A stretch of 64,000 nucleotides of DNA, taken from assembly GCA_016788045.1 (NCBI GenBank), contig JAEUTG010000042.1, positions 1 through 64,000 on the forward strand, given 5' to 3'. Positions 9,174 through 40,039 of this stretch are shown in pieces. The translations under genes and the position numbers were made by a program. Source of the stretch: Bacteroidales bacterium. Its GTDB lineage: Bacteria > Bacteroidota > Bacteroidia > Bacteroidales > Lentimicrobiaceae. The notes beneath the pieces were generated by a model that saw nothing but the letters and a program-made list of their open reading frames with translations, was not told where the DNA came from and did not search any database. The stretch's first letter is position 1. Every line of letters begins with the position of its first letter.

Positions 9174-10238
9174 ATGTACGACTATACCGATGACGACCGC
9201 CTGCCGGTAACCATTCTGACCGGTTTTCTGGGAGCCGGCAAAACCACCCTGCTCAACAACCTGATCAAAACCGGCCCGGATAAGAAGTTTGCTGTAATTG
9301 AAAATGAATTCGGTGAAATCTCCATCGACAACGACCTGATTGTAGGAGTTGAAAACGACAACATATTCGAAATGTCAAATGGCTGCATCTGTTGTACCCT
9401 CAACGGTGACCTGGCTGAGCTGCTGTTCGATATCCTCAACATCCGCCATAAGCTTACGCACATGGTGGTCGAAACCACCGGTATTGCCGACCCGTCAACC
9501 GTGGTGCAGGCATTTATGTCGTCGGAACAGATCGAGATGTTTTACCGCATCGACAGCGTGGTTTGCCTGGTGGATGCGCGCAACATCAAAGCCATTGCTG
9601 CTGATACGGAGATGGCTGCCAAGCAGATCACCTACGCCGATACCATTGTGCTGAATAAAACAGATCTGGTGGATGAAGCTACCCTGGCGGCAGCAGAGGA
9701 GCTTGTAAGAACCTACAATCCATTCGCGAAAATTATCCGCTGCAGTTTTGGCATGATTGACCCTGAGGCCTTGCTGGATACCTGGGCCTATGCCCCGCCG
9801 GTAATTGAGTCCTTCTCACTGGATGCATCGCGGATGAAATTGTCTTCCGGTGTGCTGAAACCGGCCGGATTTGCCCTGGTACAGAAGCAGCAGACCCCGC
9901 TGGCGCATGACATCGAATCGCACAGCTATACCTTTACCCGCGATTTTGATCCGCACAAGTTCAATTTCTGGCTCGACCACCTGATTGAGTATTACGGGGC
10001 CGGCATCTACCGCATCAAAGGCATTGTGAGTTTCGCCGGGGTGGCTCAGAAAGTAGTGGTTCAATCGGTGCGCGACCACATCATGATTTCAGCCGGTGAA
10101 AACTGGCAAGCGGATGAAAGCCGCAGCAGCAGAATTATCTTCATCGGAAAGCAGCTGAGCCACCTGAGGCTGGAAGAGAGCCTGGTGGAATTGCTGGGAG
10201 GCGACCTGCAGCAGAGTGTAAACCTGCTTCAGCGCTGA
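9174..10238 (+). CDS. CobW/COG0523-family GTP-dependent metallochaperone
   Basis: A 354-residue G3E-family GTPase. The P-loop is GFLGAGKTT at 17-25, the family metal-binding motif GCICC is at 70-74 (C71, C73, C74), followed by ETTG and the guanine-specificity motif NKTD. A CobW C-terminal domain occupies roughly 230-350. Members deliver zinc, cobalt or other metals to client proteins with GTP hydrolysis. The client cannot be told here: no zinc-uptake genes or Zur-like box were seen. It converges on metF, with the two stop codons directly adjacent. The neighbour metH needs both zinc and cobalamin, which makes a link conceivable but unproven. Confidence 0.85.
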   Translation: MYDYTDDDRLPVTILTGFLGAGKTTLLNNLIKTGPDKKFAVIENEFGEISIDNDLIVGVENDNIFEMSNGCICCTLNGDLAELLFDILNIRHKLTHMVVETTGIADPSTVVQAFMSSEQIEMFYRIDSVVCLVDARNIKAIAADTEMAAKQITYADTIVLNKTDLVDEATLAAAEELVRTYNPFAKIIRCSFGMIDPEALLDTWAYAPPVIESFSLDASRMKLSSGVLKPAGFALVQKQQTPLAHDIESHSYTFTRDFDPHKFNFWLDHLIEYYGAGIYRIKGIVSFAGVAQKVVVQSVRDHIMISAGENWQADESRSSRIIFIGKQLSHLRLEESLVELLGGDLQQSVNLLQR

Positions 10239-25597: not shown

Positions 25598-27934
25598 TCA
25601 GGGTGTAGCTATAACACGGGTATTCAGGACTTTAAATTCCGCCCTGAGGTTGTTTGTACTCAACGTGAAATCACCCTGCTCCACCACCCAGGCGTTGTCG
25701 TTGTTCACAAAAGCAAGGCTGCTGACTGGTATTTCAAAGGCAACGGTCTGCGACTCTCCGGGCTGCAGCATGATTTTCGTGAACCAGCGCAGGCGTTTTA
25801 CAGGGGGGGTGATGGAAGCCACCAGATCGGAGCAGTATAGCTGTATTACTTCCATACCCGGTCTGTCAGACAGGTTCATCACCTTCACACTTCCTTTAAG
25901 GGTATCGGCAGCCCTGTATTTGTTACTGCTTAAAATAAGGTTACTGTATTCGAAAGTGGAATAACTCAGGCCGGACCCGAATTCCCATTGCGGGAAGAAA
26001 GCAGATTTGTTTGGCGATGAAGGATCGTCAAGCTGCTCGGTATAGGCATGATAATATTGCTCCAGCGAGTTCTGGTAACGGGGATAGGTAAAAGGCAACC
26101 GCCCTGAGGGGTTTACATCGCCATACAATATGGATGCGATGGCGTCACCCCCATAGTTGCCTGGCAGATAGGCCTGAAGGATGGCTGCGGCCAGTGGCTC
26201 AATGGCACTGATGATTCTCGGCCTCCCCTGTACCAGTAGCAGAATCACCGGTTTCCCGGTCGAAGCTGCCAGCCGGGTCAGTTGCTGCTGATTTTCCGAC
26301 AATGCCAGATCATTCAGGTTGCCGGGGGTCTCGGTATAGGAGTTCTCACCAAGGCATAAAACGATGTAGTCCGCTTTTCGGGCAGCAATGAGAAATTCGC
26401 CGGGGTTTCCGTTGATCTCATTCCTGTAATCACCTTTTTTGTCATATTTTAATACCTCGCTGAGCATTATATGCAGGCTGTCTTCAGCCATTCGTTGGAG
26501 GGCTTCGTAGATGGTATGCTTGTCAGACGCAAATTCATCCGACAAATCACCCTGCCACGAATAACTCCACCCTCCGTTAAGGGGTCTCATGGAGTTTGCG
26601 GCGGGACCGGCAACCAGGATTTTTGCATTTTTGGACAAAGGAAGAATCTTATCCTGATTTTTGAGCAGGGTCACCGATTCTTCGGCAACCTGACGCGCCT
26701 GGGCTGAGAATTGCTCCGAACCGAATTCGGTATAGGAATCTGCAGTAGCTGAAGGCTTACCGAAAAGCCCCATGTTGTATTTGACCGTCAGAATCCGGCT
26801 TACGGCATCGTCGATTCTCGAAACAGGAACCTCGCCCTCCTTTACCAGCTCAATCAGGGTGGTGGCAAAGTCAAAATTGTATGGAACCATGGACATGTCA
26901 ATGCCTGCATTGATGGCCATTTTTACTGCTTCTTTATAACTGGCAGCAACCTTGTGCCGTGTATAGAGAAATTCAATATCCTGCCAGTCAGTAACGGCAA
27001 ACCCTTTGAATCCGAGTTCTTTTTTCAGCACATCGGTGATCAGGTGTTTATTGGCATGTGCAGGCAGCCCATTCACGGCTCCGGAGTTGATCATAACGGT
27101 CATCGCACCTGCCTCAATCGCAGCTTTGAAAGGGGTGAGGTGATATTCGGTAAACTGGTGATCAGGAATCATGGCCGGGGTTCGGTCTTTCCCGGTTCGT
27201 GGCTGCGAATATCCGGCAAAGTGTTTGAGGCAGCATCCTACCCTGTTGAACTCGTCTGTTTGATTCTTTTCGCCCTGAAGGCCAATGATGAGCGACTTTC
27301 CCATCATGGAAACAAGGGTGGGATCTTCGCCGAAGGTCTCCCAGAACCTTGGCCAGCGGGGATCAACGCCCAGATCCATTACCGGGCTGAAAATCCAGCT
27401 GGCTCCTGTTGAACGGGTTTCGTAGGCTGTGATTTCACCGGCAGTGCGCGCGAGCTCGGTGTTCCAGGTGGCTGCCAGTCCCGACTGCTGCGGGAAGAAT
27501 GTAGCTCCGGCTACATAGGAAGCCCCATGGATCATATCGAGGCCATAGATTACCGGAATCCGGTTGGGCGAATACTTCATTGCCGCATCCTGAATCTGCC
27601 CGATCAGCCTGTTCCACTCCCTTGGATCGCGGGCACGGTTATTGGGCGTATTGAGCACCGAGCCGATAAAGTATTTTCCGAATGCTTTTCTGAGCATCGC
27701 CGTGTCGAGCACTACCGGTTCGTAACTGCTCAGGTGATCAGGCCCGAAGGTGAGTACATCCAGGGTTACCTGAGTCATCTGACCCACCTTCTCTTCGAGG
27801 GTCATCCGGCTCAGCAGTTCCTTCACCTTTGCCGCTGTCTCATCTTCGGACGATGAGGTCCGGGTTTTGAAACTACACGACGAAAGAAGCATCAGACTGC
27901 AGAGCAGAAAAAACGCAGCATTGCTGATTTTCAT
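25598..27934 (-). CDS. glycoside hydrolase family 3 beta-glucosidase lipoprotein
   Basis: A 778-residue enzyme with a lipoprotein signal (LLSSC, C20). The GH3 N-terminal barrel contains VIYGLDMIHGA, CLKHFAGYSQP and the nucleophile region GFAVTDWQD near 311-319. The middle alpha/beta sandwich contains YIVLCLGE...TPGN and the general-acid neighbourhood. The C-terminal fibronectin-like domain begins near FGSGLSYSTFEYS. Such enzymes release glucose from oligosaccharide ends; in a beta-glucan locus the product would be glucose from laminari-oligosaccharides. It is the last gene of the PUL, 87 bp after the periplasmic GH16 gene. Length is normal. Confidence 0.92.
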   Translation of the reverse strand: MKISNAAFFLLCSLMLLSSCSFKTRTSSSEDETAAKVKELLSRMTLEEKVGQMTQVTLDVLTFGPDHLSSYEPVVLDTAMLRKAFGKYFIGSVLNTPNNRARDPREWNRLIGQIQDAAMKYSPNRIPVIYGLDMIHGASYVAGATFFPQQSGLAATWNTELARTAGEITAYETRSTGASWIFSPVMDLGVDPRWPRFWETFGEDPTLVSMMGKSLIIGLQGEKNQTDEFNRVGCCLKHFAGYSQPRTGKDRTPAMIPDHQFTEYHLTPFKAAIEAGAMTVMINSGAVNGLPAHANKHLITDVLKKELGFKGFAVTDWQDIEFLYTRHKVAASYKEAVKMAINAGIDMSMVPYNFDFATTLIELVKEGEVPVSRIDDAVSRILTVKYNMGLFGKPSATADSYTEFGSEQFSAQARQVAEESVTLLKNQDKILPLSKNAKILVAGPAANSMRPLNGGWSYSWQGDLSDEFASDKHTIYEALQRMAEDSLHIMLSEVLKYDKKGDYRNEINGNPGEFLIAARKADYIVLCLGENSYTETPGNLNDLALSENQQQLTRLAASTGKPVILLLVQGRPRIISAIEPLAAAILQAYLPGNYGGDAIASILYGDVNPSGRLPFTYPRYQNSLEQYYHAYTEQLDDPSSPNKSAFFPQWEFGSGLSYSTFEYSNLILSSNKYRAADTLKGSVKVMNLSDRPGMEVIQLYCSDLVASITPPVKRLRWFTKIMLQPGESQTVAFEIPVSSLAFVNNDNAWVVEQGDFTLSTNNLRAEFKVLNTRVIATP

Positions 27935-28021: not shown

Positions 28022-28798
28022 CTATTTTGTATAAAGGCGCACATAGTCAATTTCCATTACAGCTTCTGAAAGAGCCGGGTCAATCCCTTTTTCTCCGCCC
28101 CAGTTGCCTCCCATGGCAATGTTCAGGATCAGATGGAAACGTTTGTCGAAAGGCCAGGTCTTAAAATCTCCGGCTTTATCGTTGTTGAAAGTAAAATATT
28201 TCTGGTCGTCGATGAATACATCAATTTTGTCGGCCGTCCATTCAACCGAATAGGTGTGAAACTGTGTGGCATAGTCAGGAACATTGATTTTTGTGCCAAC
28301 CTGTGTACCTTCAACATGATTGTATGCTTTGGTATGAACAGTTGCATGCACAACCGTGGGGTTATGTCCGACATGTTCCATGATGTCAATCTCACCGCTC
28401 TCGGGCCAGCCACCATATTCCCAGTCGGTTGACAGCATCCAGATTGCAGGCCAGGTGCCAATTCCGGTGGGGAGTTTTGCCCTTACTTCGAGACGACCGT
28501 AGAGAAAATCAACTTTGTTCTTCGTCACCAGTCTGGCCGAAGTCCACTTTCCGTCCTCTTTAATGGCCCTGATGAGGAGTTTACCGTCTTTCACTTCAGC
28601 ATTGCGGAGCTGGCTGGTATAATTCTGCATTTCATTGTTGCCCCAGCCATGATCACCCAGATCATAGCCCCAGAATTCCGTAGCAGGTAACCCGGTATAG
28701 TCGAACTCATCAGCCCATTTCAGCCTGTAAGCGTCCTGAGCAAATGCAGAGGTGGAGGTGATGAGAAATGCAGAAATCAAAATGCTGAGTTTTTTCAT
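28022..28798 (-). CDS. GH16 endo-beta-1,3-glucanase, secreted
   Basis: A 258-residue single-domain GH16 with an ordinary signal peptide (cleavage near SAFA-QDAYR). The catalytic motif GEIDIME carries nucleophile E136, D138 and acid/base E141; the extra methionine (E-x-D-x-x-E) is the laminarinase/lichenase-type beta-bulge form. WADEFDYTGLP and LILNIAMGGNWGG are typical flanks. It lacks a lipobox and is probably periplasmic, in contrast to the lipoprotein GH16 upstream in the same locus. A 293-bp spacer, which holds only a short palindrome near 29050-29073, separates it from susD. Confidence 0.93.
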   Translation of the reverse strand: MKKLSILISAFLITSTSAFAQDAYRLKWADEFDYTGLPATEFWGYDLGDHGWGNNEMQNYTSQLRNAEVKDGKLLIRAIKEDGKWTSARLVTKNKVDFLYGRLEVRAKLPTGIGTWPAIWMLSTDWEYGGWPESGEIDIMEHVGHNPTVVHATVHTKAYNHVEGTQVGTKINVPDYATQFHTYSVEWTADKIDVFIDDQKYFTFNNDKAGDFKTWPFDKRFHLILNIAMGGNWGGEKGIDPALSEAVMEIDYVRLYTK

Positions 28799-29091: not shown

Positions 29092-30648
29092 TCAGTAACC
29101 TGCATTCTGGGTAAATGAACCGCCCGACATATCCAGTTCTGACTGCGGAATCGGTAAAAACCCTTTGGTAGCAGGATTGAAGGTTACATCAAAAATCTGC
29201 TGGTCTCCCACGTAATTGGGGCCCCTGATTCCTGAGTAGGTGAAGGTCTGGTTTGCATAATCCAGCCCTTTGCGCAAAACATCAAAGTAGCGGATGCCTT
29301 CGAGGGAGAGTTCCAGCCTTCTTTCCTTGTAGATATTTTCCTGTGTTGCAGGAATGCTGCCGAGACCGACCCTGGCACGCACCCTGTCGAGGTATTGCTG
29401 GGCATTGCCTGAACCCAGCTCTGCGGCCATCAGCAGTACATCCGAAAAGCGGATTACACGATGGTTACAGGTGCGGTTGAGCTCAAACTGACCGTTGCTT
29501 CCCCAGTGTTCAGCATCGGAGCTGTATTTCTCTGAGAAATATCCTGTATGCTGGTACCCTTTATCAAGTGTGCCATCAAGCTCCTCCTGTGTAAGCACGG
29601 TAAACTCAAACCTCGGATCGTCTTCCAGGTCATTGACCAGTTTCTGGCTAACGGTTCCGAAGCTCCAGCCACGGTTCCATTTCTGTGACCCGGTAACACG
29701 CGGTCCCTGCATCTGGGCGGAAAGGTTGCCTTCACCACCCCTTACATAGCCCCAATCCCACCAGGGAGGGGTGTCGCCGTAAGAGATTTCAAACACCGAC
29801 TCTTTGCCGTATTCTCCGGCAAGCTTGAAATTCTGGCTGTAATCTTCGAAAAGATCGTGTCCGCTGTTTGCAATCAGGTTGTCGAGGTAACCAACCAGTA
29901 CCTGTTTGTTCACCACCTGATCACCAGCCTGAAGGTCATTCCCGTAAACGCCGTTGTAGAAAAGGTACACCCTGGCCAGCAAAGCCTGTGCAGCCCATTT
30001 GGTGATCCTTCCGGCTTCAGCGGGAGGTACACTTTCAGGCAGGTCGTTCATGGCCTCGGTAAGGTCGAGTGCAATCTGGTTGTATACATCTGCAGGGGCT
30101 GCCTGCGGCTGTTTGTATTCCGAAGGGCCGCTAAGTGTGCGGGTCAGCAATGGGATATTTTCAAAGTAAGCAACCTGCTCAAAATAAAAATATGCCCTGA
30201 GAAACTTGCTCTCAGCAATCAGTCGCTTTTTAAACTCATCGGAAGCATCCACACCCTCGATCTTCTCAAGCAGAACATTGGCCCGATAGATTCCGGTGTA
30301 GTTCTTAATCCAGATAGCCTGAACAATTTTGCTCGTGGTAGGGATGTTGAAGTTGTTCAGTTCATCTTCATCCTGACCATCGTTGGCATCGGCACCACCG
30401 GCATAAGAGTCATCGGAAAGCACATCAGAGATGGTAATAAACGGAGCCCAGGAATAACCCGGGGTGTCCTGGTAGCCCAGTACGTCATACACCGCAATCA
30501 GGGCCTGCATGGCCTGCTCTTCTGTTTTATAGAATGTTGAAGTTACTTCCTGATCCAGAGGACCCAGGTCAAGAAAATCGTCGCTGCAGGATACTGAAAG
30601 CGTCACCAACGTGATGGAAGCGAGTATTTTATAGATTATTTTTTTCAT
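29092..30648 (-). CDS. SusD/RagB-type glycan-binding outer-membrane lipoprotein
   Basis: A 518-residue lipoprotein from ATG 30648 (LVTLSVSC, C21); the longer in-frame start at 30696 lies inside susC. It shows SusD hallmarks: SCSDDFLDLGPLDQ at the mature N-terminus, ESKFLRAYFYFEQVAYF in a TPR-like helix, KWAAQALLARVYLFY, and the C-terminal RxxRLELSLEGIRYFDVLR motif. It forms the lid of the SusC transporter and captures oligosaccharide at the surface. It lies 17 bp after susC, the usual tight pair. Confidence 0.95.
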   Translation of the reverse strand: MKKIIYKILASITLVTLSVSCSDDFLDLGPLDQEVTSTFYKTEEQAMQALIAVYDVLGYQDTPGYSWAPFITISDVLSDDSYAGGADANDGQDEDELNNFNIPTTSKIVQAIWIKNYTGIYRANVLLEKIEGVDASDEFKKRLIAESKFLRAYFYFEQVAYFENIPLLTRTLSGPSEYKQPQAAPADVYNQIALDLTEAMNDLPESVPPAEAGRITKWAAQALLARVYLFYNGVYGNDLQAGDQVVNKQVLVGYLDNLIANSGHDLFEDYSQNFKLAGEYGKESVFEISYGDTPPWWDWGYVRGGEGNLSAQMQGPRVTGSQKWNRGWSFGTVSQKLVNDLEDDPRFEFTVLTQEELDGTLDKGYQHTGYFSEKYSSDAEHWGSNGQFELNRTCNHRVIRFSDVLLMAAELGSGNAQQYLDRVRARVGLGSIPATQENIYKERRLELSLEGIRYFDVLRKGLDYANQTFTYSGIRGPNYVGDQQIFDVTFNPATKGFLPIPQSELDMSGGSFTQNAGY

Positions 30649-30665
30649 GGTTTCAGGTGTTAAGG

Positions 30666-33600
30666 TTAGAAAGTAATGGTGGTTCCTAAACGCCATGTTC
30701 TGGCCTGTGGATAAATACCACGGTCAATGCCGATGTCAAAAGCACTTCGGGCCCCGATTTCAGGATCTGCACCGGTGTATTTGGTCAGCGTGATCAGGTT
30801 TTCACCGGATACATAGATCCGCCATACGGATGCCCCGATTTTTTTAAGGAAATCTGCCGGAATAGCATAACCCAGCTGCGCATTTTTCAACCTGAGGTAC
30901 GATCCGTCTTCAATATACAGGTCAGAAACCCTGTAGTTGTTGTTGATGTCGATCCAGGTGTAACGGGGTACATCGGTGGAGGTTCCTTCGCCTGTCCAGC
31001 GGTCAAGAATGGCTGTGGTGCGGTTGGTGAACCGCAGGTCCTGACGCTGGCTGCCATTGAATATCTCATTTCCGTAGGAGCCGGTGATCAGCATGGAGAA
31101 ATCGAAATTCTTATAATTCGCCGATGCATTAAAACCGAAGGTCCAGTCAGGAGTCGGATTTCCGATCATAGTGCGGTCGTCGGTATCAATTTTTCCATCG
31201 TTGTTGACATCCACAAAACGTACATCTCCAGGTTCTGCATTGGGCTGCAGGGGCAGTCCGGTAATCCCGATGTGCTGGAAAATCTCTGATTCATTCTGGA
31301 ATATTCCATCGGTCTTGTAACCCCAGAAATAGCCGATGGGCATACCTTCTTCGGCCCTGGTGACGGTTCCGGCAATGGCCCAGGAAGCTCCGTTGAGCAC
31401 CTTGTCTTCATTCCCGATGTATGTCATCTTGTTCTCGTTGTATGAAGCATTGAATCCCAGTGAATACTGGAAGCCTTTCTTCATGTGCCGCCAGGTGATG
31501 TCAAATTCAACCCCCTTGTTCTGCACACTGCCGACATTGGCTACCGGTGCATCGTTGCCGACATGTCCGGGGATGGGAATTCTTTCAAGCAATCCCTTGG
31601 TGGTTTTAATATAATAGTCAACAGTGGCAACCAGGCGGTTGTCGAAAGCACCCAGGTCAATGGCAACATCAATTTGTTCTGATTCTTCCCAACGGATGTC
31701 GGCATTCTCAATGTAGGAAGGCGATGCTCCTACGATACGACCCGAGCCGAAGATGTAACCCCTGCTTTTGTTGATGGTTGAGATGTACTGGTAATCCCCG
31801 ATGTTTTCGTTTCCGTTGATACCCCAGGAGGCTCTCAGTTTCAGATTATCCAGATTCCTGACTTTCCCGAAGAAGGGTTCATCACTGATCACCCAGGATG
31901 CTCCGAATGAGGGGAAAACACCGTAGCGGTTGTTGGCCCCAAATCTGGAGGATCCGTCGCGCCTGATGATACCGGTAAATGCATACCGGTCCTTAAAGTC
32001 ATAAGTTAAACGGCCAAAAACGGAAGCCAGTGCCGAATGAGAGGCGCCGCCATTGGCAACCCATACCGTATCGGTAGCCATGCTCAGGTATACATTGTCG
32101 GGATCGAACAGCGGAACCTTGGCATTAAAGCCATAGAGGTTCTCATAGTTTCTTTTGAATGCAGATGTTCCGGCAAGTAATGAGAAATTGTGTTCCTTGA
32201 TTTTCCGGCTGTATGAAACGGTATTCTCCCACTGCCAGTTGTAATACCTGTCAATGCTTTTGTTAACAGAAGTCTTTTCAACATTCAACTGCGCTCCATT
32301 GAGGTAAAAGAGCGGGCGATACCCGCCATTGAGTACATAAGCCAGATCAATACCCAGACTGGTGTTGACCTTAAGTCCCTTAATGATCTCAGCCTCCCCG
32401 AAGATGTTGCCGACAATCTTATCAACCCTGGTTTCACCGTTCTGAATTTCAAGCAGGGCCATGGGGTTAACGACCTCTGCCCCTACGTAGTTTGAGATAC
32501 CGTAAACCCTTCCTGAACCATCCTTAACAACCGGTTCTGTGGAGTAGGGTGCCTGTGCGAGAATATCAGGATTCTCTTCGTAAAGCGGGGTTAGCGGATC
32601 GAGGTTCAGGGCGCTGCTGTATGCTCCGTTGAAGGATTCGTTACTTCCGATACTTTTGCGGGCTATGTAGGTATAGGCCAGATTGTTCCCGAATGTAAAG
32701 ACTTTGTTTACCTTACTCTTGGTGTTCAGCCTGGCGGTAATCCTGTCGAACTGTGATTTCTCACCGCCGATGATCCCTTGCTGGGAGAAATAGGAGAGGT
32801 TTGAAACATAGGTGGTCACCTCATTGCCTCCGGTTACAGAGAATTCATGGTTCTGCATGGGTGCATTTTTCTGAAACAGGTGATCCTGCCAGTTGGTATT
32901 GTGCAGCGGTATTTCATTCAGATCAAAGGGTTCAGATAAGCCGGCATTGCGTGCACCTTCGTTCATAATCATGCGGTACTGTTCAGCATCCAGCATATCC
33001 AGCGTATGCGCAACATTCTGAATTCCGGTATATCCTGAATAGGTGACATTCATTTTTCCGGCTTTCCCGCTTTTGGTTGTTATCAGGATAACGCCGTTGG
33101 CTGCCCTGGCTCCGTAGATGGCCGCGGAGGCTGCATCCTTCAGTACATCCATTGATTCAATGTCGCCGGGATTCAGATAGTCAATTCCGCCAACAACAAT
33201 TCCATCAACAACGTATAGTGGAGAAGCATCACCGGTGGTTCCTGCACCGCGGATGCGGATAGAGGGAGCTTCACCAGGCTGACCCGAAAGATTGGTCACC
33301 TGAACCCCGGCAGTGCGGCCCTGAAGCGCCTGCTCAACACGTAGAATCGGGGTGGAGGTAATATCCTCACTGTTTACACTCGAAATGGCCCCGGTCACCA
33401 CCTTTTTCTTCTGGGTTCCGTAACCGATTACCACCAGCTCGCTGAGGTTGGTGGCTTCTGCCTTCAGTACAACATCGATCACCGATTTGCCGCTTACGGC
33501 AATTTTCTGCTTCTGAAAACCGATAAACGAAATGTCAAGTGAAGCATTCTGATTGCTGACCGTAATTGTGAATTTACCATCGATGTCAGTAGTGGTTCCG

Positions 33601-33755
33601 TTGTAGGTACCCGTTTCAACTACCGTTACACCAGGCATTCCCATACCGGTTTCCTCTTCGGTGATTTTTCCGCTTACCTTAAACCCCTGGGCGAACAGCA
33701 GGTTGGAAGTGAAAAAGGAAACCAGCAATATGATTAATTGTAGTTTTTTCTTCAT
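30666..33755 (-). CDS. SusC/RagA-type TonB-dependent glycan transporter
   Basis: A 1029-residue outer-membrane transporter with a signal peptide (SNLLFAQ), an N-terminal carboxypeptidase-regulatory-like domain (GMGMPGVTVVETGTYNGT near 38-55), a TonB box region near 105-115 (LSELVVIGYGTQKKK), a plug with RIRGAGTTGDASPLYVVDG, and a 22-strand barrel ending RTWRLGTTITF with terminal F. It imports glycan fragments using TonB energy. Its partner SusD follows. In this locus the likely cargo is beta-1,3-glucan oligosaccharide, inferred from the GH16/GH3 neighbours. Confidence 0.96.
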   Translation of the reverse strand: MKKKLQLIILLVSFFTSNLLFAQGFKVSGKITEEETGMGMPGVTVVETGTYNGTTTDIDGKFTITVSNQNASLDISFIGFQKQKIAVSGKSVIDVVLKAEATNLSELVVIGYGTQKKKVVTGAISSVNSEDITSTPILRVEQALQGRTAGVQVTNLSGQPGEAPSIRIRGAGTTGDASPLYVVDGIVVGGIDYLNPGDIESMDVLKDAASAAIYGARAANGVILITTKSGKAGKMNVTYSGYTGIQNVAHTLDMLDAEQYRMIMNEGARNAGLSEPFDLNEIPLHNTNWQDHLFQKNAPMQNHEFSVTGGNEVTTYVSNLSYFSQQGIIGGEKSQFDRITARLNTKSKVNKVFTFGNNLAYTYIARKSIGSNESFNGAYSSALNLDPLTPLYEENPDILAQAPYSTEPVVKDGSGRVYGISNYVGAEVVNPMALLEIQNGETRVDKIVGNIFGEAEIIKGLKVNTSLGIDLAYVLNGGYRPLFYLNGAQLNVEKTSVNKSIDRYYNWQWENTVSYSRKIKEHNFSLLAGTSAFKRNYENLYGFNAKVPLFDPDNVYLSMATDTVWVANGGASHSALASVFGRLTYDFKDRYAFTGIIRRDGSSRFGANNRYGVFPSFGASWVISDEPFFGKVRNLDNLKLRASWGINGNENIGDYQYISTINKSRGYIFGSGRIVGASPSYIENADIRWEESEQIDVAIDLGAFDNRLVATVDYYIKTTKGLLERIPIPGHVGNDAPVANVGSVQNKGVEFDITWRHMKKGFQYSLGFNASYNENKMTYIGNEDKVLNGASWAIAGTVTRAEEGMPIGYFWGYKTDGIFQNESEIFQHIGITGLPLQPNAEPGDVRFVDVNNDGKIDTDDRTMIGNPTPDWTFGFNASANYKNFDFSMLITGSYGNEIFNGSQRQDLRFTNRTTAILDRWTGEGTSTDVPRYTWIDINNNYRVSDLYIEDGSYLRLKNAQLGYAIPADFLKKIGASVWRIYVSGENLITLTKYTGADPEIGARSAFDIGIDRGIYPQARTWRLGTTITF

Positions 33756-33833: not shown

Positions 33834-34940
33834 TCAGTTTTTCTGAAATACCCTGATGTAATCAACCTTCAATTGCTGAGGGAAAACTGTGGTTGCATCG
33901 GGATTACCTGGCCAGATTCCACCTACAGCTACATTAAAAATGAAAAACTGCTTGAGGTGAAATTCAGTCATGTGCCCGGGTGTGATATCAACTTCGTTGA
34001 ATTTCACATCGTTAACATACCATTTAATGGTTGTTTCATCCCAGATGATGGTAAATACATGGTATTCATCGGCGAAGATTCCGGACGAAAGGGTATACGA
34101 CTGCCCATACTGTGCGTGACCGTTGTTTTCCCAGTGCAGGGTTCCGTGAACGGTTTTTTCGCGGTTGCTGCCACCGATCATTTCCATAATGTCGATTTCC
34201 CCGCAGGCCGGCCAGCTTACAGTGGTGATGTTGTTGCCCAGTGTCCAGAGCGCAGGCCAGATACCTTGTCCTTTCGGAAGCAACGCCCTGATATCCACCC
34301 TGCCATAGGTAAAGGTTTTTTTATCGCGGGTTACAAGTCGTGATGAGGTGTAGGCACTGCCGGAGTAACTCTCCTTACGTGCTTCAATGGTAAGCACCCC
34401 GCCATCAACACTGGTATTCTCGGGGCGGTAATACTGCAGTTCATTGTTGCCCCAGCCTCCGGCCCCTGTTTCGTAACTCCAGAACTGGGTGTTCAGCACG
34501 TTTCCGTCAAATTCGTCATTCCACACCAGCTGATAGCCATCATACTGCAAAGGGGTTGTATATCCCTCACCGATGGTTATCGGGTCCTCATCGGTAAGAA
34601 CTATCTGACGCGAATCCTTAATATAGCGGCCTGAACTTCCATAGGCCCTGACCTCAATCTGGAAGGTTCCCGCAAGGGGAAACTCGTATTCGAAATGTCC
34701 GCTGGTGTTTGTGGCAGCCGCAGTCGTGGAACTTCCCACATACAAGCGGTATTCGGTTGCATTGTCTGCTGTTGCATGAATTACAACCACACCGGGACCT
34801 TCATCGGGGAGTGTTACTTCCACGGTAAGATTTGTCGGGTCGCCGGTTGGATTTTCTTCTTCATCCTTGCAGGAGATCAGGCTGATCGTTACTAAAAAGA
34901 GGAAACTCAGTAACAGACCGTGAAAGATTGGTTTTTTCAT
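33834..34940 (-). CDS. surface GH16 laminarinase lipoprotein with N-terminal Ig-like domain
   Basis: A 368-residue lipoprotein (LISC, C24, followed by acidic KDEEEN, which favours surface export). Residues 35-120 form an Ig/PKD-like module (TVEVTLPDEGPGVVVIHATA). Residues 130-365 are GH16 with GEIDIME carrying E248, D250 and E253. The endo-enzyme would cut beta-1,3-glucan at the cell surface to fragments small enough for SusCD. It sits between the PKD lipoprotein and susC; a 119-bp inverted-repeat element lies in the gap upstream. The family is clear; laminarin as substrate is inference. Confidence 0.92.
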   Translation of the reverse strand: MKKPIFHGLLLSFLFLVTISLISCKDEEENPTGDPTNLTVEVTLPDEGPGVVVIHATADNATEYRLYVGSSTTAAATNTSGHFEYEFPLAGTFQIEVRAYGSSGRYIKDSRQIVLTDEDPITIGEGYTTPLQYDGYQLVWNDEFDGNVLNTQFWSYETGAGGWGNNELQYYRPENTSVDGGVLTIEARKESYSGSAYTSSRLVTRDKKTFTYGRVDIRALLPKGQGIWPALWTLGNNITTVSWPACGEIDIMEMIGGSNREKTVHGTLHWENNGHAQYGQSYTLSSGIFADEYHVFTIIWDETTIKWYVNDVKFNEVDITPGHMTEFHLKQFFIFNVAVGGIWPGNPDATTVFPQQLKVDYIRVFQKN

Positions 34941-35084: not shown

Positions 35085-36590
35085 CTATTCAAATTTGAAA
35101 TTGCGGATGTAGAACGTACCCTCGTCATCGTGGCCGCCACCACCGAGTGATACGGCAAAGAAGTCAAGGTCGGTTCTGGTAGCCGGGGTATATACACCCA
35201 TTCCTGGTCCGCTGGAAGGCGCATCCAGGTTAAAGGTATAGGTTACCCATTGATCCATAACCGTTGCCTCAGCATCGTACTGGACATGACCATTCCACCA
35301 CTGTGCTGTCTGGCTTGCTTCACCGATGATAAGGGCGATCCCTTTGGTGAGCGTTCCGGAATAATCGTTTGAGGATGGTACGTAGACCTCAATGGATATT
35401 TTTGTGAAATTGTTAAACTGGATGTCATTCGGCATCTGGAACTGAAGCTCCTGATAGGTGCCTTTTCTTTCGTACATACCACAGTTTGGACCAGCACCTG
35501 CAGGATCAGCAACGCCCATGGTAAATACCATTCCGCCATTGGCAGCTGTGCCATTGCCCGGGTAAACACCTGCGGTGTCAAGCACGATGAAACTCGTGGC
35601 TGTTTCGAAAGTATTCCACATTTCAGTCGGTGTCAGATTGGGAAGGTCTTCACCATATGGAGGCTCAACCTGAACAACATCAGGCTCGAGTGCGGGGTTT
35701 GAATAGCTGACATAGGTGAAATCCCAGTAAAGGGCAGCATAGGTATAGGAAATGGTCATCAGATCGTATCCGTCTTTTTCTTCAATAACGGCTTTGAACG
35801 ATTTTGAAGCTTCTGGTACAATGGATTCAACGGAGGTGCCAAGCTGAGGAAGACCCATCCAGGCTCCCAGACCGGTTAAAGTAATGGTGTTGGTTGTAGG
35901 TTCATAAGTATAGGAATGTGTCCCGCTCAACCAGGCGCTGACATCTGCTCCGGCTGAATTGATCATGTTGGCTGGAATTGCTTCGAAACATGATTCATTT
36001 ACGGCTGTGCCGGAAAAAACAGCACCCTCACCCCAGAAAGCTCCTTTATCATCAAATACAAAGGAACCATCGCGTTTAAAAGTAAACTCCTGGAAGTAAT
36101 AACATGGTCTGGCGCCTTCATTCGACAGCGACCACCAGATGCGGGGACTGTTGGCATCGGGACCAACACCCATGGAGGTTCCTTCACGGAAAAGCTTCCA
36201 TGTTTTGGAAGTCTCGCCTGCCAGCAGACCCAGGGCAGAGTTCGGATCCTTGATCTCAACGGTCTGGTTAAAAGTAGCAGACGCATTGGCTGAATTCTTG
36301 GCCGTCAGCACAATGGTATAATTACCTGCTGCTGCATAAGCATGCACCGGGTTGGCCTCTGTTGAAGTCTGACCATCACCGAAATTCCACTCGTATGAAG
36401 TAGCGTTCTGTGAATAATTGGTGAAGGTAACTTCAAGGTAATTGGTAGTACTGACTGCATACTGAAAACTGGCGATCGGATTTTTTGGCGGATCTTCATC
36501 CTCATCCTTGCAGGAAACAATCGTCATCGTCGAAAGAACTGCAACAAAAACCAGCAATAACTGGCTCCATTTTGAAAATTTGTTTCTCAT
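35085..36590 (-). CDS. PKD-domain surface glycan-binding lipoprotein
   Basis: A 501-residue lipoprotein from ATG 36590 (TIVSC, C27, then acidic KDEDEDPP). A PKD domain covers about 38-115 (YEWNFGDGQTSTEANPVHAY). A lipocalin-like or beta-rich middle follows (GLLAGETSKTWKLF). A C-terminal jelly-roll module from about 330 resembles a carbohydrate-binding module (ISIEVYVPSSNDYSG, WVTYTFNLD). No catalytic motif is visible. Similar PKD lipoproteins accompany SusCD in laminarin loci and bind the polysaccharide at the surface. It is the first gene of the locus and lies behind the candidate promoter and phased repeats. Confidence 0.8.
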   Translation of the reverse strand: MRNKFSKWSQLLLVFVAVLSTMTIVSCKDEDEDPPKNPIASFQYAVSTTNYLEVTFTNYSQNATSYEWNFGDGQTSTEANPVHAYAAAGNYTIVLTAKNSANASATFNQTVEIKDPNSALGLLAGETSKTWKLFREGTSMGVGPDANSPRIWWSLSNEGARPCYYFQEFTFKRDGSFVFDDKGAFWGEGAVFSGTAVNESCFEAIPANMINSAGADVSAWLSGTHSYTYEPTTNTITLTGLGAWMGLPQLGTSVESIVPEASKSFKAVIEEKDGYDLMTISYTYAALYWDFTYVSYSNPALEPDVVQVEPPYGEDLPNLTPTEMWNTFETATSFIVLDTAGVYPGNGTAANGGMVFTMGVADPAGAGPNCGMYERKGTYQELQFQMPNDIQFNNFTKISIEVYVPSSNDYSGTLTKGIALIIGEASQTAQWWNGHVQYDAEATVMDQWVTYTFNLDAPSSGPGMGVYTPATRTDLDFFAVSLGGGGHDDEGTFYIRNFKFE

Positions 36591-36695: not shown

Positions 36696-36727
36696 CAATA
36701 TTAGCGTAATTCAGGCACACTTGTCAA
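36696..36727 (-). promoter_or_regulatory. candidate promoter of the beta-glucan PUL
   Basis: On the minus strand TAATATTG (36703-36696) is one base from TAnnTTTG, with TTG (36727-36725) 21 bases upstream. The transcript would have about 100 nt of leader before 36590. The weak -7 box fits an activator-dependent promoter. Confidence 0.45.
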
Positions 36728-36736
36728 GATTTGTTC

Positions 36737-36844
36737 TACATCAAATTTACGTCATGCCATTTTTTGTATTACATCAAAATTACATCAATAACTTCATAAT
36801 AGCAACAAAATCAATAAATAATCAATGGAATATAATTACATCAG
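36737..36844 (-). promoter_or_regulatory. phased direct repeats, candidate operator of the PUL regulator
   Basis: TTGATGTA occurs on the minus strand at 36744-36737, 36777-36770 and 36788-36781, with a partial TGATGTA at 36844-36838. Distances of 33 and 11 bp put the first three on the same helix face. They begin 10 bp upstream of the candidate -33 element, where an activator would sit. The rest of the 506-bp gap (36591-37096) shows no gene. Confidence 0.45.
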
Positions 36845-37096: not shown

Positions 37097-40039
37097 CTAA
37101 AAATTCAGGATGTAGTCTGTCAGATTGGCTTCCCGTTCGAGCTGCAGTTTTTTTCTCAGGCGGTAACGGCTGATTTCAACACCCCGCACCGAGATATTCA
37201 TCAGGGGTGAAATCTCTTTGGTGGAAAGATTCATCCGCAGGTAGGCGCATAACCTGAGATCTTTCGGCGACAATTCCGGGTGTGCATCCTTGAGCCGTTT
37301 CAGGAAGTCCTGGTGTACCTCATCAAAATAGGCGTTGAAAGCTTCCTGGTGTTTTTCATTGCTGAGTTCCCTGTTGATTTTTCTGACCAGTGAAGCAATT
37401 TCATGTTTGTGGTCGTTCCCGGATCCGGCTTTCTGCAAAAGGTCGGATAACTGGAGTTTCAGTGTAGTCAGGATTTTGTTTTTATGCAGCAGATTCAGGG
37501 TAGAGTTTGCCAGCTCTTTGTTCTTATGGTTCATTTCATTGATCAGGGTCTCATTTCTGAGGTTGATGATCTCTTTTTCCTGTATCAGGGTTTGTTCTCT
37601 GAACTGCATCACCTGATTGTTAAGTTCTTTTTCGTGTTTCTGAAGTTCGCTGGCTCTGGTTTTTTCAATTCTTCTTTTCTGGAAATAAATATTACCGATC
37701 AGCAGAATGACGAGAAAAGCAGAGTAGATCGAATAAGCCGCTACTGAGCGGTGGAAAGGCGGTTTTATGCGGAAAGTAAAACGGCTTGCCTCTCCCGTGG
37801 CATGATAGGCATTCATGGCCCTCACCTCAAAGGTATAGATTCCTTCCCTGAGGTTGGTGTATTCCTTAAAGCTGTTTTTATCCCATTCTGACCAGTTATC
37901 ATCAAAGCCTGTGAGACGGTAAGAGAAAAGGGTACTTCCGGGTTGTTCGTAACAGGGACTGGTAAAACTGAAGGTTACGGAGTTGTTTTTATAAGGGATT
38001 TCAGCCCTGACTGAATCATTTTTCGCGGATCTGAGCAACTGATGATTACCGGAAGCCAGAAAAATGGTTACCGGGTTTTCCGGATCCGGAAAGGTTGCCT
38101 GCCTGATGTAAACCGGATCTGTCTGACGGTAATTCACGGTCAGTTCAGGGTTGTAATGAATCAACCCGTTCTGGGAACCAATAAAGATATTCTTGTCATC
38201 ATGCAGGTAAATACTTTCGAAGGTCGGAAGCAGTGAAGAATTGATGGGATAAAAAGGGATCTCGATGTTGTTGAAGCTTCCATCCTCCAGCAAACGGTTA
38301 ACCCCGGTTTTGTATAGCGAAAAATACCAGAGGTTGCCGGAGGCATCTTTGCTTATTTCGCTGATAAATTCCTGATTTCTGAAGATTTCATTGTAGTTGC
38401 CCTGGCTCACAAACTGCTGACGATCCTTGTTAAAGGCATAAAATCCCCGGGGGGTAGAGATCAGGATTTCATCATCAATCTTGTTGAGGTTGTAAGGAAA
38501 TTTCCCCGGCAATCCATGCCCTTTGTCATACAGAACAGAATTTTTTACCGTAGTCAGATCATCACTCAAAATAAGGTGAAAAAGTCCGCGGTAACCATGG
38601 GCTACCCAGATGCTGCCATCTCTGTCCTGTTCCAGAAACCGGCAGGACTCGGTAAAACCCTTGATTTTACCGGCATCTTTCCAGGTGTTGTTTTTTCTGA
38701 GCAACAGCACCAGCCCGTTGTAGGTGCCTGCCAGCAAGGTATCGGAAGAGCCATTGTATTCTATTATTTTCCAGAATCCCGGGGTATCGGATATGCGCAC
38801 TGCTGTGCCGTTTTCAATCTGAAAACACCCGTAGTTGTGCCCGCAGAGCAGTTTGTTGTCAATAATCGTCAGTGACCAGACCTGGCCTTCGGTGCCTTTG
38901 ATCAGGCTGAAGCTGTTGTTCAGATTACGGTTCGTCAGGTTCTTCAGCTCAGAGGCATACAGGCCCTGATTGGTGCCGACATACAGCTTGTCCTCAAACG
39001 CAATGGCTGCATAGGTACTTTCCAGATTATAAGTATAGTTGTAGATACTAAGCGGTGAATTCAGTTCGATGTAGTCGATTCCGTTATCCAGCCCCAGCCA
39101 GAGGTTATGACGTTTGTCTTCAAACAAACTGAGGATGGTGTTGTTCTGCAATCCCTTCTGCCTGGTAATCTGCTGAAATATAACACCTTTCAGGTCGGCA
39201 ATATAAAGCCCGTTTCTGACTGTGCCGAAGGCGTAAAATCCGTTGCTCAGTTTTATTCCGGTGAATAAACCGTATTCAATGAGAAACCTGTTAAGGGTAT
39301 CATCCCAGGGATAAAGTTCCTTACCATCGAAAACAAAAACCCCGCTCGTGAAAGTGCCTATCAGCAGTTTGCCCGGGCTGAGTTCCATCACACACCTCAC
39401 TTCATCGCGTTGAAATACCGGATGATTAAACATGAATCGAAGTCCCCCGGGTGTAAGTTCATACATGCCGGTCTCCTTATCAAAAACAACCAGCCGGTTG
39501 TTGAGGTGAAAAGAATACAGAAATGAGGATTTTGGTTTTATTACATTAATCCGGTTGTTGTTATACACAAAGATGTATCTGAACGACTGAAAGACGATGC
39601 CAAAGTCCGTGCGGTGAATTTTCCAGACCTCATCAAATTTCCGGTATGGTTTGGGAATAAGCTCCACATAAGACCGGTACTCCAGCTGTCCGTTGCCGGA
39701 AGCCGAGAAATATCCGATCTCCTCAAACGAACCGGTGTAAATGGTGTCGCCAACGGTAAGTACCGAACGTACAATGGTTTGTGCCGGCAGCGCTTTGGTT
39801 ACCCAGTGCTGGCCGTCGAATTCAAGCAGTCCGTCGTTGTTGCCGAAATACAGAAAACCCTGGGAATTCTGGGCGATTGACCAGTTCTGTGTACTGGCAT
39901 TGTAAGTAGATTTTGAGTAGTTGCTGATAAATGGCAGACCGGTCTCCTTTATCTGGCTGGTTCCGCGAAAGGGCAGGCACAGCAAAGTTGCCGTAATGAT
40001 CAGTAAAGAAGAAAGTGCCGTATTAACGCTTCTGTTCAT
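37097..40039 (-). CDS. membrane-spanning Y_Y_Y/LuxR-type transcriptional regulator
   Basis: A 980-residue sensor-regulator. After a signal or anchor segment (LLIITATLLCLPF), about 650 residues form a two-component-type beta-propeller sensor (repeats such as GFLYFGNNDGLLEFDG, NLWLGLDNGIDYIE, SIWVAHGYRGLFHL). A Y_Y_Y domain follows near 690-755 (YRLTGFDDNWSEW), one membrane helix near 770-785, a long coiled coil (about 790-870), and a LuxR-like HTH near 905-965 (LSPKDLRLCAYLRMNLSTKEIS, RGVEISRYRLRKKL). There is no histidine kinase or receiver, so signal passes directly from periplasm to DNA. Its place beside the PUL suggests it senses a beta-glucan oligosaccharide. Confidence 0.88.
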   Translation of the reverse strand: MNRSVNTALSSLLIITATLLCLPFRGTSQIKETGLPFISNYSKSTYNASTQNWSIAQNSQGFLYFGNNDGLLEFDGQHWVTKALPAQTIVRSVLTVGDTIYTGSFEEIGYFSASGNGQLEYRSYVELIPKPYRKFDEVWKIHRTDFGIVFQSFRYIFVYNNNRINVIKPKSSFLYSFHLNNRLVVFDKETGMYELTPGGLRFMFNHPVFQRDEVRCVMELSPGKLLIGTFTSGVFVFDGKELYPWDDTLNRFLIEYGLFTGIKLSNGFYAFGTVRNGLYIADLKGVIFQQITRQKGLQNNTILSLFEDKRHNLWLGLDNGIDYIELNSPLSIYNYTYNLESTYAAIAFEDKLYVGTNQGLYASELKNLTNRNLNNSFSLIKGTEGQVWSLTIIDNKLLCGHNYGCFQIENGTAVRISDTPGFWKIIEYNGSSDTLLAGTYNGLVLLLRKNNTWKDAGKIKGFTESCRFLEQDRDGSIWVAHGYRGLFHLILSDDLTTVKNSVLYDKGHGLPGKFPYNLNKIDDEILISTPRGFYAFNKDRQQFVSQGNYNEIFRNQEFISEISKDASGNLWYFSLYKTGVNRLLEDGSFNNIEIPFYPINSSLLPTFESIYLHDDKNIFIGSQNGLIHYNPELTVNYRQTDPVYIRQATFPDPENPVTIFLASGNHQLLRSAKNDSVRAEIPYKNNSVTFSFTSPCYEQPGSTLFSYRLTGFDDNWSEWDKNSFKEYTNLREGIYTFEVRAMNAYHATGEASRFTFRIKPPFHRSVAAYSIYSAFLVILLIGNIYFQKRRIEKTRASELQKHEKELNNQVMQFREQTLIQEKEIINLRNETLINEMNHKNKELANSTLNLLHKNKILTTLKLQLSDLLQKAGSGNDHKHEIASLVRKINRELSNEKHQEAFNAYFDEVHQDFLKRLKDAHPELSPKDLRLCAYLRMNLSTKEISPLMNISVRGVEISRYRLRKKLQLEREANLTDYILNF

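Follow-up and report, generated by a model that had tools for sequence, protein, structure and literature searches.

Helically phased operators built of direct repeats are known in kind, from the SARP and MalT regulators and from predictions for the SusR-like and HTCS regulators. MalT of enteric bacteria is a sugar-responsive activator that likewise has a LuxR-type DNA-binding domain and direct-repeat sites, the latter reportedly the subject, by its title, of work by Vidal-Ingigliardi in 1991; MalT is a cytoplasmic ATPase and its boxes and spacing are other than those of the array described here. The SARP regulators are soluble proteins. In those typified by AfsR the repeats are spaced by 11 or 22 bp and keep a constant distance to the core promoter, but their DNA-binding domain is of the OmpR type and their repeats overlap the -35 element, 8 bp from the -10 (PMC10936776, from the part available).

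Transmembrane one-component regulators are numerous in the Bacteroidota, and the available part of PMC10269533 describes their action from the membrane as poorly understood. The SusR-like regulons predicted in Bacteroides comprise membrane-spanning PUL activators with head-to-tail direct repeats whose centres lie 67 or 77 bp apart (PMC3878776, available in part), a long, helically phased distance that is close to that of the distal box described below, which in relatives of the present locus lies mostly at 66-67 or about 88 bp. The SusR-like systems have two sites and a long spacer, and 11-bp pairs are not described in the available part of that source, whereas here there are four boxes stepped 11/22/11 and a distal box, the comparison being one of layout and not of words. 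The HTCS regulators BT4663 and BT3049 likewise have a periplasmic double propeller with a Y_Y_Y sensor, and HTCS sites are predicted, in the same available part, to be direct repeats of words 12-16 bp long, spaced by 5-9 bp (PMC3878776); however, HTCS proteins contain a kinase, a receiver and an AraC-type domain, and the regulator studied here is without all three.

For regulators of the Y_Y_Y/LuxR type, no description of an operator was found in open PMC papers, supplements aside. The available parts of PMC5698469, PMC11253607 and PMC10858194 contain nothing on this class, and a literal search for the motif in papers returned only unrelated matches among those listed. The direct repeats of PMC12125979 belong, according to the available part of that paper, to a Vibrio XylR-type regulator of another class. 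In the present work, we describe a repeated word, its arrangement in four boxes and its fixed promoter register, which recur together with one regulator class and open the way to regulon prediction across many genomes; the TGATGTA array is, furthermore, a ready target for binding and reporter assays.

The array and its gene cluster

The window is the whole stretch of DNA analysed, 64 kb in length. The array lies between the stop codon of a regulator gene and the ATG, at 36590, of the first gene of a PUL. The features are as follows.

37097-40039, minus strand: transmembrane regulator gene (980 residues; signal/TM, two beta-propellers, Y_Y_Y, TM helix, coiled coil, LuxR/NarL-type HTH)
36837-36843, minus strand: distal single box, TGATGTA, 56 bp upstream of box 1
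36781-36787, minus strand: box 1, TGATGTA, offset 0, exact, position conserved in orthologues
36770-36776, minus strand: box 2, TGATGTA, offset 11, exact, position conserved in orthologues
36748-36754, minus strand: box 3, TGACGTA, offset 33, 6/7 match
36737-36743, minus strand: box 4, promoter-proximal TGATGTA, offset 44, exact, position conserved in orthologues
36725-36727, minus strand: TTG, by sequence a weak -33-like element, 21 bp upstream of TAATATTG
36696-36703, minus strand: TAATATTG, -7-like element, 5/6 of TAnnTTTG, 40 bp from the box 4 start
35085-36590, minus strand: PKD-domain lipoprotein, first PUL gene, probable glycan-binding protein
33834-34940, minus strand: GH16 glycosidase
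30666-33755, minus strand: SusC-like TonB-dependent receptor
29092-30696, minus strand: SusD-like lipoprotein
28022-28798, minus strand: GH16 glycosidase
25598-27934, minus strand: GH3 glycosidase, end of the PUL

Judging by the GH16 and GH3 families, the substrate is likely to be a beta-glucan. Laminarin gene clusters are often headed by a gene annotated as LuxR, and a PKD protein is present in them (PMC13188888, 2026, from the part available).

A preliminary description had claimed three exact copies of TTGATGTA at spacings of 11 and 33 bp, and the minus strand has all three, at 36737-36744, 36770-36777 and 36781-36788. As a geometry this was incomplete, a TGACGTA 11 bp from the proximal copy having been overlooked; given that word, at 36748-36754, the true plan is one of two pairs at offsets 0/11/33/44, which reads toward the PUL as TGATGTA-N4-TGATGTA-N15-TGACGTA-N4-TGATGTA from 36787 down to 36737. 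The C of the TGACGTA in box 3 is also found in the near-identical array of another genome, G004. The supposed partial fourth copy contains a full TGATGTA, with C replacing the T before it, and lies 56 bp from the most distal exact copy.

The number of TTGATGTA words in the 64-kb window (6, with 1.87 expected) is weak evidence taken alone. None of 20,000 first-order Markov simulations produced three exact copies within the 504-bp intergenic region. For the four-box layout the window scores 27 of 28, the simulated maximum of 22 being reached by 7 of 20,000. The array is real, beyond chance, and was understated in the preliminary description.

That the repeats are structural or accidental, as curved or AT-rich promoter DNA, duplication remnants or a leader RNA element, is highly improbable. 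The region is 33% G+C and short repeats do arise in AT-rich DNA, but simulations that preserve dinucleotides do not yield the array. The mean top-base frequency at 11 loci of the genus, moreover, is 0.93 in the box columns, 0.61 in the spacers and 0.90 in the -7 element, where the conservation of the box columns is partly by construction and the -7 element played no part in the alignment. The leader RNA element was rejected because the boxes lie upstream of the predicted transcription start.

The adjacent regulator

The region adjoins the stop codon of the gene at 37097-40039, whose product has Reg_prop, Y_Y_Y and a GerE-like end, and the adjacency to a Y_Y_Y/LuxR regulator gene claimed earlier is borne out. 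Only Reg_prop, Y_Y_Y, a GerE-like domain and a weak TetR_C_30 are found by Pfam, the GerE match, at 20.1 bits, falling below the curated cut-off of 23.5. A PDB profile search returned FixJ, EsrB and EL222 (E 0.01-0.03). In the full-length model (mean pLDDT 84) a double propeller, Y_Y_Y, membrane helix, coiled coil and HTH are predicted. In the fold comparison of the C-terminal part, model residues 105-170 resemble the tetrahelical HTH fold of the DosR, VpsT, LiaR and NarL domains at moderate Z (8.9 to 7.4), with an rmsd of 2.0-2.4 A over about 60 residues and Foldseek E above 0.05. The top Foldseek matches of the sensor part are 4a2l and 3v9f, the sensors of BT4663 and BT3049 (E 3e-35 and 1.6e-33). 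Membership of the HTCS was rejected: the propeller/Y_Y_Y sensor is present, but a histidine kinase, receiver and AraC-type domain are absent by Pfam. Since there is no kinase in the chain, we classify the protein as a transmembrane one-component regulator. For LuxR/NarL-type domains, inverted repeats are more usual than direct repeats.

The same HTH family occurs in six further proteins of the window genome, five of which have TPR repeats. Elsewhere in this genome (contig C55, L213:7274-9025), a 583-residue protein joins a PHO4-type permease (residues 18-329) to the coiled-coil/LuxR-type HTH family (E 1.8e-35), and this fusion is possibly a transporter-like sensor that doubles as a transcription factor.

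Conservation beside homologous regulators

Of 99 related genomes searched at the protein level, 63 have a homologue of the regulator. Comparison of the orthologous upstream regions, as had been proposed, found both word and spacing to be kept; their absence, set beforehand as the refuting outcome, was not found. All 11 regulator loci of the same genus with a downstream region carry the 0/11/33/44 array, with scores of 24-27 of 28. Among the 28 loci with sequence in the first orthologue set, which is without L003 (69 bp downstream) and L014 (contig end), 16 score at least 22, one scores 21 and 11 score below 20. A further 80 named loci were added, of which 78 were usable, L134 and L165 being cut before the regulator end and left out. 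With identical regions merged and those shorter than 120 bp excluded, a score of at least 22 is reached by 43 of 99 downstream regions, by 2 of 76 upstream regions and by none of 3,500 simulated regions, though many of the loci are closely related, so that these counts are not independent events and overstate independence.

In a scan of geometries, 39 regions reach at least 23 with (11,33), 15 with (11,44) and 15 with (11,22), all others giving at most 6; the two runners-up share boxes with (11,33) arrays. The array recurs over much of the phylum, in other families and orders; the taxa include Marinifilum, Labilibaculum, Mariniphaga, Draconibacterium, Prolixibacteraceae and, in a divergent layout, Cesiribacter. 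A homologous regulator without the array, the pair or the Pedobacter-type layout described below is found at 14 of the 78 named loci; these may use different sites, act on targets at other places or have words that diverged.

The genus is represented by 19 genomes, 13 of which have the regulator. When no more than 3 mismatches are allowed, the four boxes are matched in 11 genomes (12 places; 0 control matches), and all 11 are within the 13 that have the regulator, with none among the six that are without it (Fisher p = 0.001). Arrays with 4 mismatches are present in the remaining two regulator genomes, G005 and G012. In G004 and G015 an array is on a contig other than that of the regulator, and in G015 it heads a PKD-GH16-SusC-SusD-like set, as judged by length, order and first residues. 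Two divergent arrays are seen on contig C184 of G015 (L227, about 9485-9780), the second of which points to the contig end, away from the PUL.

Blind genome search for the pair

Across 295 genomes of the order, the pattern TGATGTANNNNTGATGTA was matched 72 times and its reversed control 7 times. These sites were picked without regard to the regulator, and 71 of the 72, the window's own being excluded, were fetched with up to 10 kb on each side, to give 60 loci. The same regulator class is adjacent at 19 of 45 non-coding loci and at 0 of 15 coding loci (p = 0.001); 17 of these 19 regulators are on the same strand, ending 6 to 533 bp upstream, and 2 are divergent. The next gene at the 56 non-coding sites is SusC-like in 19 cases and GH16-like in 2. 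Twenty other next genes were compared with Pfam: five are GH3 (L070, L071, L088, L090, L112), five PKD (L074, L082, L088, L097, L102) and two PF10091 glycosidases (L110, L113), the rest being a glycosyl hydrolase with CBM6, GH5, MFS, a sigma factor or unassigned.

When all spacings were searched (TGATGTAN{0,20}TGATGTA), the matches listed were mostly in-frame coding repeats at multiples of 3. Among 150 of the matches listed, a spacing of 11 occurs 15 times, compared with a mean of 2.8 for the 13 remaining spacings that are not multiples of 3.

The array could in principle be the operator of a different DNA-binding protein, a TPR-type paralogue or another PUL regulator, with the adjacency reflecting nothing but conserved gene order. 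The order of regulator and PUL is itself conserved, and the six paralogues noted above share the HTH family; yet the TGATGTA pair is absent from all six paralogue neighbourhoods, in the stretches fetched from the window genome, which shows that the array does not accompany this HTH family in general and on which ground the paralogues were ruled out as its owners. The array is, furthermore, missing from the 6 genus genomes without the Y_Y_Y regulator, and the blind search arrives at the same regulator class at 19 of 45 non-coding loci in varied PUL contexts. We therefore regard ownership by another protein as improbable.

Several pair loci depart from the common plan. Three-box runs with an 11-bp period (0/11/22) stand before the GH3, PKD and SusC operons of one G214 locus (L088:7001-15700) and before two operons in G298 (L089:9001-11460), and such unbroken runs are a variant array. 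Two pairs 42 or 76 bp apart precede one SusC/GH3 gene at L063:751-793 (coordinates of the reverse strand), L066:10001-10043 and L112:373-449. In L100 and L072 the pair lies between a divergent regulator and a SusC gene; the frame of the L100 regulator has a stop before the HTH, and L170 was excluded from the full-length alignment on account of a stop codon.

Promoter elements and their register to the boxes

Both elements of the TTG/TAATATTG promoter proposed in the preliminary description are present, but TAATATTG agrees at only 5 of 6 positions with TAnnTTTG, the -7 consensus of the Bacteroidetes housekeeping (sigma-ABfr) promoters (PMC7366714, from the part available). About 32 bp separate the end of box 4 from the -7 element downstream. 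A perfect TAnnTTTG stands exactly 39 bp after the box 4 start in 18 of the 45 regions scoring at least 22, and in one region each at offsets of 11, 29, 38 and 72. The window promoter is slightly outlying, with a 5/6 match at -7, an offset of 40 rather than 39 and a distal box at 56. A distal box with 6 or 7 matches precedes box 1 in these 45 regions by 66-67 bp (14 counts) or 87-91 bp (13 counts), the distances stepping by approximately whole helical turns.

In the blind pair set, the distance from the pair to a perfect -7 element peaks at 83 and 50 bp (0 of 15 coding sites), the values expected where the pair represents boxes 1-2 or boxes 3-4, and a further peak at 125 fits two pairs 42 bp apart.

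The sign of regulation is not readable from sequence, and the adjacent regulator might own the operator and yet repress, or both repress and activate. We consider this quite improbable, for all four boxes stand further upstream than the -33 region and keep a constant distance to the -7 element, which is the usual layout for an activator, and SusR is an activator (PMC3878776, available in part).

The Pedobacter and Mucilaginibacter layout

The same word is found, without the four-box array, at 19 loci of Sphingobacteriales type, mostly from Pedobacter and Mucilaginibacter. When they are aligned, most show CTACATCATTACCTCTCAT, the inverted word, immediately past the stop codon of the regulator gene, and TGATGTATTAATGT-AG precedes susC; 18 of the 19 match the second-site pattern and the nineteenth reads AGATGTA. 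The inverted and proximal sites are separated by 149-152 bp at 9 loci, 159-163 bp at 8 and 134 bp at 1, such that the two main classes differ by about one helical turn. Lag analysis did not find an 11-bp period in this group. Perfect -7 elements are absent from the 19 loci, and in most of them a weak -7-like position follows the proximal word at 50-51 bp, which is the register of box 3.

One residue of the predicted recognition helix is Arg at all 19 of these loci (RGVEIRRYR in most), against 0 of 56 other loci, where Ser, Cys, Gly or Ala is found (3 further loci unread). The 19 are largely one clade, and the link between Arg and layout is hence a correlation that goes back to one origin or a few.

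Proposed mechanism

The array is very probably the operator through which the adjacent transmembrane one-component regulator (37097-40039) acts as an activator. Conservation, the link from the blind motif to the regulator, the fixed register, the carbohydrate targets, a second target in its own genome and the HTH fold all argue for this reading, and the earlier proposal of an operator beside a Y_Y_Y/LuxR regulator gains sequence-level support from the orthologue arrays, the blind search and the fixed -7 register in particular. Counting against it are the 14 named loci with none of the layouts and the 11 low-scoring loci of the first orthologue set, the slightly outlying promoter of the window, the close kinship of many loci, the loss of the GH5 pair in most orthologues, the GerE match below its cut-off, and the preference of LuxR/NarL-type domains for inverted repeats.

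The periplasmic double propeller and Y_Y_Y domain would sense a beta-glucan fragment and the coiled coil, as laid out in the model, may couple this sensor to the cytoplasmic LuxR/NarL-type HTH. The HTH domains would bind the TGATGTA heptamers in head-to-tail order, all from the same side of the helix, for which the observed geometry offers two pairs, each with an 11-bp period, set 33 bp apart. The fixed register of box 4 to the -7 element suggests contact with RNA polymerase, and this contact would activate the PKD-GH16-SusC-SusD-GH16-GH3 operon. The distal box, at 56 bp here and mostly at 66-67 or about 88 bp in relatives, presumably belongs to the same system, where it may add cooperativity or looping, and the unlinked GH5-CBM6 promoter described below is likely to fall within it also.

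More tentatively, and on balance doubtfully, a single TGATGTA operator code might extend across the phylum. In such a code a dimer-of-dimers of the membrane-anchored regulator would sit on two same-face pairs in fixed register to RNA polymerase, the distal box (56, 66-67 or about 88 bp) or the Pedobacter/Mucilaginibacter inverted site (149-152 or 159-163 bp) would be bound by the same assembly, with the promoter looped and held at the inner membrane, and the change from Ser/Cys to Arg would have accompanied a switch of layout.

An unlinked GH5-CBM6 promoter

The only other exact pair in the window genome is at 59096 of contig C8, with TATTTTTG at 39 bp. It lies 124 bp before a gene whose product is secreted, combines GH5, CBM6 and CBM35 and has a T9SS tail, and this unlinked gene serves as an example, within the window genome, of the regulon prediction that the motif allows. 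The pair is kept upstream of the GH5 gene in 3 of 12 orthologues, the third being in G015, and is missing in nine. Allowing up to 3 mismatches, the combination of the pair, 39 bp and TAnnTTTG occurs at 23 places in the 19 genomes, with 5 control places. Just 2 of the 23 have no mismatch, those of C8 and of G010; both are before the orthologous GH5 gene, and the two promoters differ from each other between the boxes and the -7 element.
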